From Chloropicon primus (taxonomy: Eukaryota; Chlorophyta; Chloropicophyceae; Chloropicales; Chloropicaceae), in assembly GCA_023205875.1 (NCBI GenBank), contig CP060754.1:1302001-1366000 (forward strand): 64,000 nucleotides of DNA, in the 5' to 3' direction. This document shows positions 15,449 to 17,991 of this stretch, one piece after another (the first letter of the stretch is position 1; every line of letters begins with the position of its first letter). A program made the position numbers and the translations under genes. Below the pieces are notes generated by a model. The model saw only the letters and a list, made by a program, of their open reading frames with translations. It was not told the origin of the DNA and did not search any database.

Positions 15449-15576
15449 CCAAGAACAATGTCTCACGACGAACCTGTCATCGACCTTCGCTTCCTCTTCT
15501 GATTCCTCCTCCTCCTTTCTCCTTTGTTTTCTCTCTTCCGGTGGATTTTCTCCCTTCCGCTGAACCATCATAACGG
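15418..15576 (+). repeat. Direct repeat, copy 1 (3' end and downstream flank of ankyrin gene)
   Basis: This 159-bp segment is repeated without differences that I can see at 17377-17535, an offset of 1959 bp. It covers the last codons (VIEWIDANS), the stop and about 125 bp of 3' flank. Confidence 0.85.
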
Positions 15577-15647
15577 CCCGAGGCCACGAGGGGCCGAACG
15601 AGGACGAGCACGAGAGAGAAACGAAGAGGACGGGAGCGCGTGGAGGA

Positions 15648-15682
<35 letters not shown>

Positions 15683-15973
15683 ACAGGAAAGAAGGAAGCG
15701 TCGTCTCGTGCTCTTTCGAACGAGCTCTCGCGCGAAAGAAACGACCCAGTGGTGAGGATCTGGCGACACGAAACGCGAAAAATTGAGGCAGAAAGAAATC
15801 GAGGAGTAGATCACCGAGGAAGGGAGGCGACGACGAGGGCGGGATTTTGTGCCGGAGGTTTCTCTCGAGTGATAGACGAGTGGAAGGAGTGTCTTTTCCT
15901 CATTAGAACGAGCCCTCGCGCGCGACAAGAAGGACCCGGTGGTGAGGATCGTCTGAGGAGCACGGACGTGAAG

Positions 15974-17407
15974 ATGGCGGTGACGATGGAGGGCAAGAGG
16001 CAGAGGAGGGAGGGCAGGGATGCACTGGACGTGCTGCCGGGGGTACTGTGGAGCGTCATTGGCACGCATGTGGCCGACTACGACCGGGTCGCTTTCGGGT
16101 TTACCTGCAAGACGTTCCTCGAGGCGGTGACAATGGCGACGACGGCGACGGCGACGGCGGCGAACCCTGAGCAGAAGAAGGTTGCTCTGAAGACGGACCT
16201 GACGGACGACAAGTTGTTCGAGCAGATGCCTTGCTTCAGTTTGGGTTGGTTCCAGTGGGTGCTTCGGTCGTTCAAAAGGAGGAAGGGAGCACGGCATAAC
16301 TGGGAATACTACGATCACTTGTACGACTCTGACCTGCTGCACCTCGCCGCTTTCCAGGGCAGCAAGAAGGTGATCAAGTGGTTGGTGAGCCAAGGGATCC
16401 CTTTGGATATGGAGCGCGAGGATGACGATGGTATGGAGCGCGAGGATGACGATGGGGTACCCGCATCGGTGGTAGCAGCTAAAGGAGCTGCTTGCGGAGG
16501 TCATATTGAGTTGCTCGAATGGTTGAGGAGCGAGGGGTGCTGGTTTGATGAAGAGACTTGTGCTCGTGCAGCTGGAGGAGGTCACCTTCACGTTCTGCAG
16601 TGGGCTCGAAGCCAGGACCCGCCTTGCCCTTGGGACGCGGGGACTTGTTCTTGGGCAGCTCGAGAAGGTCACCTTGACGTTCTGCAGTGGGCTCGAAGCC
16701 AGGACCCGCCTTGCCGTTGGGACCGGCAGACTTGTTCTTCTGCAGCTGAAGGAGGTCACCTTGAGGTTCTGCAGTGGGCTCGAAGCCAGGACCCGCCTTG
16801 CCGTTGGGACCGGCAGACTTGTTCTTCTGCAGCTGAAGGAGGTCACCTTGAGGTTCTGCAGTGGGCTCGAAGCCAGGACCCGCCTTGTGATTGGAACTAC
16901 GAGACTTGTAAAGAGGCAGCTTCAAGAGGTCATCTTCACATTCTGCAGTGGGCTCGAAGCCAGGACCCGCCTTGCCCTTGGGACGAGGAGACTTGTTATG
17001 AGGCAGCTCGAAGAGGTCACCTTGACGTTCTGCAGTGGGCTCGAAGCCAGGACCCGCCTTGTGATTGGGACAAGAGGACTTGTAGAGAGGCAGCTCGAAG
17101 AGGTCACCTTCACATTCTCCAGTGGGCTCGAAGCCAGGACCCGCCTTGCCCTTGGAACTGGGAGACTTGTGATTGGGCAGCTCGAAGAGGTCACCTTCAC
17201 ATTCTCCAGTGGGCTCGAAGCCAGGATCCGCCTTGCCCTTGGAACAAGGCGACTTGTGAGTGGGCAGCTGGAGGAGGTCACCTTGAGGTTCTGCAGTGGG
17301 CTCGAAGCCAGGATCCGCCTTGTGATTGGAACCCAGAGGATTGCAGAAGAGAGGCGAAGTACTACAATCAACAGCACGTCATCGAATGGATCGATGCCAA
17401 TTCGTAA
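15974..17407 (+). CDS. F-box-like protein with nine 29-residue ankyrin-type repeats
   Basis: A 477-residue protein. The N-terminus (about 14-50) has an F-box-like helix pair (LDVLPGVLWSVIGTHVADYD, then FTCKTFLEA). Ankyrin-like helices follow (LLHLAAFQGSKKVIKWLVSQG, ELLEWLRSEGCWFDEETC). Nine near-identical units start VLQWARSQDPPC and carry W-D/N and TC...AA..GHL. The DNA period is exactly 87 bp. Units 2 and 3 (16688-16774 and 16775-16861) look identical, showing recent homogenisation. Similar WARxxGCPWD repeats occur in large algal and stramenopile families. An adaptor role, for instance in an SCF ubiquitin ligase, is inference. A relic of the same gene lies upstream. Confidence 0.75.
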   Translation: MAVTMEGKRQRREGRDALDVLPGVLWSVIGTHVADYDRVAFGFTCKTFLEAVTMATTATATAANPEQKKVALKTDLTDDKLFEQMPCFSLGWFQWVLRSFKRRKGARHNWEYYDHLYDSDLLHLAAFQGSKKVIKWLVSQGIPLDMEREDDDGMEREDDDGVPASVVAAKGAACGGHIELLEWLRSEGCWFDEETCARAAGGGHLHVLQWARSQDPPCPWDAGTCSWAAREGHLDVLQWARSQDPPCRWDRQTCSSAAEGGHLEVLQWARSQDPPCRWDRQTCSSAAEGGHLEVLQWARSQDPPCDWNYETCKEAASRGHLHILQWARSQDPPCPWDEETCYEAARRGHLDVLQWARSQDPPCDWDKRTCREAARRGHLHILQWARSQDPPCPWNWETCDWAARRGHLHILQWARSQDPPCPWNKATCEWAAGGGHLEVLQWARSQDPPCDWNPEDCRREAKYYNQQHVIEWIDANS

Positions 17408-17535
17408 CCAAGAACAATGTCTCACGACGAACCTGTCATCGACCTTCGCTTCCTCTTCTGATTCCTCCTCCTCCTTTCTCCTTTGTTTTCTCTCTTCCGG
17501 TGGATTTTCTCCCTTCCGCTGAACCATCATAACGG
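17377..17535 (+). repeat. Direct repeat, copy 2
   Basis: Matches 15418-15576. It contains the last codons of the intact ankyrin-type gene and its downstream flank. After it the sequence turns to a CTCGTC-rich low-complexity stretch to about 17635. Confidence 0.85.
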
Positions 17536-17748
17536 GCGGCTCTCTCTTCTCGCCTCGTCCTCGTCGTCCTCCTCGTCGTCGTCGTCGCCGTCGTCGTCGC
17601 CGTCGTCGTCGTCGTCGTCGCCGTCCTCCGCCGTTACCATCAACGATCTCGTTGTCCTTGTGTAATTAACGTCTCTCACCGATCCTTTGTCTCACGGAGC
17701 AAGAGGAGAGGCGACTGTTGTTTCGCCGCCTCATCGGTTTGACACGCC

Positions 17749-17865
17749 TTCGTAGGCTGACGCGCTTCCATTGCGCCAAGGCCGCAACGCACGACAGAGC
17801 AGAGCTCCGAGTAATGTCATACAGCAAATAGCGACCTGTGGGGCTCGAACCCACAACCTTCAGCT
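17749..17865 (-). tRNA. Permuted tRNA gene, probably tRNA-Arg(ACG)
   Basis: On the minus strand the 3' half comes first (17864-17830): GCTGA anticodon-stem strand, AGGTT variable loop, GTGGG-TTCGAGC-CCCAC T arm, AGGTCGC acceptor strand and a T at position 73. After 44 nt the 5' half follows (17785-17749): GCGGCCT acceptor, TG, D arm GCGC-AATGGAA-GCGC, G, anticodon strand TCAGC and loop CTACGAA. GCGGCCT pairs with AGGTCGC over seven positions (one G-U), and TCAGC pairs with GCTGA over five. So the two halves rebuild a full 72-nt cloverleaf only when their order is swapped. The flanks can pair too (GCGTG at 17747-17743 with CACGC at 17881-17877; TACG with CGTA), giving a bulge-helix-bulge-like site. 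A junction at 37/38 gives ACG (Arg); other junctions could give AAC (Val). Confidence 0.85.
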
Positions 17866-17991
17866 CGTTACGCGGTGCGTGGACGAAACGAGATGACATT
17901 TTTTTCATTATGTAGAGATGATGGCGGGCTGCGTGAGGAGGGAGGAAGCCCGGGGGGGAGGGAAGCCCTTGCTTTCCACGATTTTTGGAGC

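Follow-up and report, generated by a model that had tools for sequence, protein, structure and literature searches.

Circularly permuted tRNA genes, in which the 3′ half of the tRNA lies upstream of the 5′ half, are known from few algae. The excerpted text of PMC3978253 gives 34 of them, from six algae and one archaeon, and describes TATA-like sequences upstream, T-stretches downstream, and a circular pathway. Permuted tRNA genes have also been described in Auxenochlorella (PMC12636532, as excerpted). Here we describe such a gene in Chloropicon primus, found in a 64-kb stretch of its genome (the window), as one of at least seven permuted gene places, with which Chloropicon (class Chloropicophyceae) would join the few lineages that have them. 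We found no earlier report for Chloropicon or its class in the main texts of an open-access library: the word "permuted" does not occur in the main texts of the Chloropicon genome papers PMC6731263 and PMC12301720, and the only other papers to come up are the Auxenochlorella one and PMC13353863, in which both matches are in the reference list.

In the excerpted rows of Table 1 of PMC3978253, the type II genes of Ostreococcus and Micromonas are like those of C. primus in that the 3′ half comes first, the junction falls between tRNA positions 37 and 38 (in 18 of their 19 rows), and there is no further intron in all rows but one. Their spacers are 11-64 nt long, a range that includes the 44 nt of the C. 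primus tRNA-Arg(ACG) gene and leaves out the 107 nt of its permuted tRNA-Phe(GAA). Both groups have permuted genes for Ser(CGA) and Ser(TGA). The Ostreococcus and Micromonas rows include no Arg(ACG), Glu(TTC/CTC), or Phe(GAA); these isoacceptors are absent from all the excerpted Table 1 rows of permuted genes, and are additions relative to them. C. primus also differs in its class, and in Arg and Phe genes that lack a T-stretch. The genes of Cyanidioschyzon merolae, as presented in the excerpted parts of PMC3978253, share with the C. primus gene the upstream TATA-like sequence, a spacer free of signals, an expected single transcript, and, with modest support in C. primus, flanks that resemble a bulge-helix-bulge. 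On the other hand, C. merolae is a red alga with several junction types, for which a downstream T-stretch and a circular intermediate are described, while the C. primus Arg gene has no T-stretch and its circle is a prediction.

We put at roughly 0.92 the probability that the window holds a working circularly permuted nuclear tRNA-Arg(ACG) gene, whose product would be processed via an RNA circle. The locus has these parts, listed along the minus strand of the window:

17893..17912, minus strand: TATA-like / A-rich promoter motif (CATAATGAAAAAAATGTCAT), its start 47 nt upstream of the 3′ half
17877..17881, minus strand: outer helix, strand in the leader (CACGC), paired with 17743-17747 in the MFE fold
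17869..17872, minus strand: leader strand of the central 4-bp helix (CGTA), paired with TACG at 17751-17754 in the MFE fold
17830..17865, minus strand: 3′ half, tRNA positions 38-73 (placed by covariance model, ARAGORN, and script), with the 3′ strand of the anticodon stem, variable loop, T arm, 3′ acceptor strand, and U73; B box at 17841-17851
17786..17829, minus strand: intervening sequence of 44 nt, a loop on the acceptor stem in the precursor
17750..17785, minus strand: 5′ half, tRNA positions 1-37 (placed by the same three means), with the 5′ acceptor strand, D arm, 5′ strand of the anticodon stem, and most of its loop; A box at 17768-17778
17751..17753, minus strand: anticodon ACG; given the joined halves, ARAGORN calls tRNA-Arg(acg)
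17743..17747, minus strand: outer helix, strand in the trailer (GCGTG), from the MFE fold
17535..17741, minus strand: copy of a dispersed repeat, starting about 1 nt past the trailer helix, with ends placed where similarity matches change

The original prediction was of a 3′ half preceding a 5′ half on the minus strand with 44 nt between them, and that order is what both direct reading and a script return (17865-17830, spacer, 17785-17750). The pairs it counted in the joined tRNA are likewise all there, and all standard: seven in the acceptor stem (one G-U), four in the D stem, five in the anticodon stem, and five in the T stem. The two flanking helices it proposed, GCGTG/CACGC and TACG/CGTA, both appear in the MFE fold; GCGTG is at 17743-17747, just outside the end that it gave for the locus. 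Neither ARAGORN nor Rfam (gathering threshold) finds a tRNA in the window, as expected for swapped halves. When the halves are rejoined in the other order, they form a full cloverleaf with a single anticodon.

Two measures indicate that this arrangement exceeds chance, and they support the permuted gene as the best reading, along with ARAGORN on the joined halves. One is a covariance model built from 16 ordinary tRNAs of the same genome, with introns removed, halves swapped, and random 8-nt spacers inserted, and with no permuted gene in the training. Searched against the 64-kb window and 23 of 87 loci (E-values are roughly calibrated), this model matches window positions 17865-17750 with 58.5 bits (E 3e-19) and zero broken pairs. 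This is the second best match, after a permuted Glu-TTC gene at 59.4 bits. The remaining 31 matches have at most 26.2 bits, and the strongest of them begin in the 3′ half of an ordinary tRNA gene or of a tRNA-Met fragment. Among these 31, the permuted Phe(GAA) gene is found only in two pieces (20.6 and 18.7 bits), with its 107-nt spacer not bridged.

The other measure is a geometric scanner, designed after three permuted examples were already known, which looks for 5 T, 7 acceptor, 4 D, and 5 anticodon pairs, and for U8, A14, GG, and U33, with a joint at 37/38 only. The tRNA-Arg locus has 21 of 21 pairs, and no other site in the window reaches 17. Scanning both strands of 150 random 64-kb windows from a first-order Markov model gives 9, 11, and 2 hits at scores of 17, 18, and 19, and none above.

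Using this scanner on 167 overlapping loci (299,285 bases), with identities assigned by ARAGORN on the joined halves, we find six further permuted gene places (L072, L078, L129, L130, L159, and L108):

Phe(GAA), C5, spacer 107 nt: scanner and ARAGORN
Glu(TTC), C14 (L078), spacer 17 nt: scanner and ARAGORN
Glu(CTC), two copies, C5, spacer 46 nt: identical inverted copies of 271 bases, with about 2.4 kb between their B boxes
Ser(CGA), C9, spacer 13 nt: scanner and ARAGORN
Ser(TGA), C3, spacer 11 nt: 19 of 21 pairs, the weakest, at a score also reached twice in the random windows

The census is a lower bound, covering 111 of the 144 places with the B-box pattern GGTTCGANYCC, and the 37/38 joint in these genes gives no independent support for that joint in tRNA-Arg, since it is the only one the scanner seeks. 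A T-stretch occurs within 20 nt past the 5′ half in five of the six; Phe has none. For C. primus RCC138, 46 tRNA genes have been published, a tRNAscan-SE figure (PMC12301720, as excerpted) that probably leaves out genes of permuted layout. In Auxenochlorella, also a green alga, an ordinary tRNA search likewise gave an incomplete set (PMC12636532, as excerpted).

The promoter motif is a 12-mer, TATA-like and then A-rich, obtained by Gibbs sampling from the upstream regions of 34 ordinary tRNA genes, duplicate gene copies included. Its best site among the 127,978 positions of the window (both strands) is the 12-mer at 17901-17912, which begins 47 nt ahead of the 3′ half. The 44-nt spacer has no promoter signal (best motif score −0.07) and no TTTT. 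Among the other permuted genes, Phe(GAA) scores 13.1 at −44, and Glu-TTC scores 6.2, a level met by 111 of the 127,978 window positions. No T-stretch terminator follows the 5′ half of tRNA-Arg; the nearest TTTT downstream is at 1,472 nt, which leaves the gene without the customary Pol III stop. Nine of the 16 ordinary tRNA genes inspected also have no TTTT in the first 70 nt downstream.

The unconstrained MFE fold of the tRNA-Arg precursor includes the outer helix, the central helix, the anticodon stem, the T and D arms, and the acceptor stem closed by the spacer. This full layout is not seen in the MFE folds of five other permuted precursors. We also compared the pairing of the leader with the loop plus trailer to that in 1,000 shuffles per gene. 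For tRNA-Arg the pairing is modestly above the shuffles (P 0.035), with bulges that are not 3-4-3, the 3′-side bulge having 4 nt rather than 3. The other P values are 0.011 for Phe, 0.024 for Glu-CTC, 0.096 for Glu-TTC, and, with a leader of only 7 and 8 nt in the test, 0.405 for Ser-TGA and 0.985 for Ser-CGA. Precursors of ordinary tRNAs usually have an anticodon-intron pair; in tRNA-Arg, C32 is opposite an A at −3, so that this pair is missing.

It is very likely that the permuted gene is functional. Pol III would start at the upstream TATA-like promoter and produce one precursor with leader, 3′ half, 44-nt spacer, 5′ half, and trailer. The leader and trailer would pair beside the anticodon stem into a structure like a bulge-helix-bulge, which the tRNA-splicing endonuclease and a ligase would cut and join at 37/38 to make a circle. 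The spacer would then be excised by RNase P and tRNase Z, and CCA would be added. The anatomy, the cloverleaf, the position of the promoter motif, and the splicing-endonuclease domains are read from the DNA, and for transcription, circle, processing, and charging we follow the known pathway, as given in the excerpted text of PMC3978253. The splicing-endonuclease domain PF01974 is found at two loci of the genome (E 2.4e-18 and 2.4e-13). For TFIIIC there is one match to the B-block profile (26.1 bits, E 1.3e-4), and the profile of subunit Tau95 has no match in the genome, where its controls were also empty.

By the usual wobble rules, decoding of CGU and CGC needs the Arg(ACG) tRNA, whose anticodon is read as ICG following deamination. 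These codons occur 26 and 30 times among the 4,363 codons of six ORFs in the window. The genome searched has 17,584,162 bases in 20 contigs. A similarity search with a 231-base region of the locus finds no second copy of either half, and its six other matches are to the downstream repeat. The Arg(ACG) 5′-half pattern TGGCNNARTGGN{10,15}CTACGRA has one match in the 17.58 Mb, the window locus; the pattern assumes the D arm of this gene and an uninterrupted 5′ half, and an Arg(ACG) gene differing there would escape it. An RF00005 search gives at least 34 matches, 33 above the cut-off (a lower bound, with 63 of 285 candidates scored), and ARAGORN assigns Arg(ACG) to none of those examined. An ordinary Arg(ACG) gene elsewhere, which would make this one a relic, was thus found neither by similarity nor by the 5′-half pattern, and this essential isoacceptor seems to be supplied by the permuted gene alone. 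A seemingly permuted-only essential isoacceptor makes the persistence of such genes testable.

A relic is the alternative that survives best, and we still find it improbable. An ancestral tandem pair of tRNA-Arg genes would have lost its outer halves, so that the adjoining 3′ and 5′ halves are both dead, and another locus would make Arg(ACG). The missing T-stretch terminator, with a repeat directly downstream, would be in keeping with decay, and the same genome does have a lone 3′ half of tRNA-Met (L077); a replacement gene could also lie outside the 111 of 144 places, all of one B-box form, that the census covered. However, all 21 pairs are intact and the required conserved nucleotides are kept, a promoter motif lies upstream, the outer flanks pair, and no other Arg(ACG) 5′ half was found by pattern in 17.58 Mb. 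Moreover, in five of the six further places with the same layout, a T-stretch directly follows the 5′ half.

The identity of the joined tRNA had been left between Arg (ACG) and Val (AAC). The 7-nt anticodon loop reads ACG whether the halves are joined at 36/37, 37/38, or 38/39. A permuted tRNA-Val(AAC), with loop CTAACGA, requires a joint within the anticodon, and an overlap between the flanks does allow AAC with a joint at 33/34 or 34/35. The similarity search for Val(AAC), which used a coarse filter, returned Val-CAC alone (a search for Trp(CCA) with such a filter had no match). Against this, 18 of the 19 excerpted green-algal rows in Table 1 of PMC3978253 join at 37/38. We also compared the joined tRNA to 17 ordinary tRNAs of C. 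primus, their introns spliced by hand, and the closest are Arg-CCT, Arg-TCG, and Arg-TCT (73, 70, and 68%), with Val-CAC at 61%. The T at position 73, which had been flagged as worth resolving, is present, and among the 17 a U73 is common to all three ordinary Arg tRNAs and two Gln tRNAs and to no others, Val-CAC having A73; tRNA-Cys, outside the 17, is also T-ended. With ARAGORN on the joined halves also giving Arg(acg), we reject tRNA-Val(AAC) as very improbable. Judged by its anticodon, Arg-like body, and discriminator, the tRNA is Arg(ACG).

Least credible of all is a split tRNA, with halves transcribed separately and joined in trans, which the separation of the halves on the DNA would allow and which we reject, because the 44-nt spacer has no good promoter motif and no TTTT, and in the fold it is the loop that caps the acceptor stem.

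Returning to the permuted tRNA-Arg(ACG) gene, the sequence behind its trailer belongs to a dispersed repeat (GGCGGCGAAACAACAGTCGCC...CTTGCTCCGTGAGACAAGG...) whose 5′ end varies among copies. By eye, the window copy contains a GGCGGC/GUCGCC hairpin, at about 17710-17730. We count 17 loci that match in the tRNA-proximal part (second pieces merged, one 33-nt match on C12 left out), a lower bound with 40 of 273 candidates scored. They are the window copy and loci on C1, C2, C3, C4 (2), C5 (2), C6, C9, C14 (2), C15, C16 (2), C17, and C18. Of these 17 loci, 16 lie at most about 125 nt downstream of a Pol III gene on the same strand: 11 ordinary tRNAs, three permuted ones (Arg, Phe, and Glu-TTC), the SRP RNA, and the 3′ fragment of tRNA-Met. 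For the remaining locus, the distance to tRNA-Cys is about 490 nt. The repeat has the look of an element that targets Pol III genes, and such placement suggests that it may be mobile. The excerpted text of PMC3978253 includes a proposal that permutation shields tRNA genes from mobile elements, on which a repeat adjoining three of seven permuted genes bears.

These results can be combined into one tentative picture, which we regard as possible and on balance doubtful. The permuted gene would be the only source of tRNA-Arg(ICG), and CGU/CGC decoding would depend wholly on an RNA circle; the Pol III-linked repeat behind the trailer would have replaced the terminator and would stop transcription via its hairpin, so that permuted genes would coexist, unshielded, with a Pol III-homing element.

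Some other features of the window and of the tRNA genes are worth recording. An ankyrin-repeat ORF (window 15524-17407, plus strand; Ank_4, E 7.9e-23) converges on the permuted tRNA, and the DNA of this stretch recurs at many places in the genome. The lone tRNA-Met 3′ half (C9, about 636458-636493) has the same downstream flank as an ordinary gene on C16, and is possibly the remnant of a tRNA gene duplication. The tRNA at C2:589444-589563 (L036) is Gly(TCC) for ARAGORN and, by eye, Arg(CCG) with T73; an extra B-box-like GGTTCGACCCC lies just upstream of it. A tRNA-Lys(TTT) gene (C4:559753-559844, L071) seems, by eye, to have two introns, one in the anticodon and a further one in the D arm. Finally, four tandem tRNA-Pro(TGG) genes (C4:1124897-1127803; L015, L033-L035) are spaced 940-948 bases apart.
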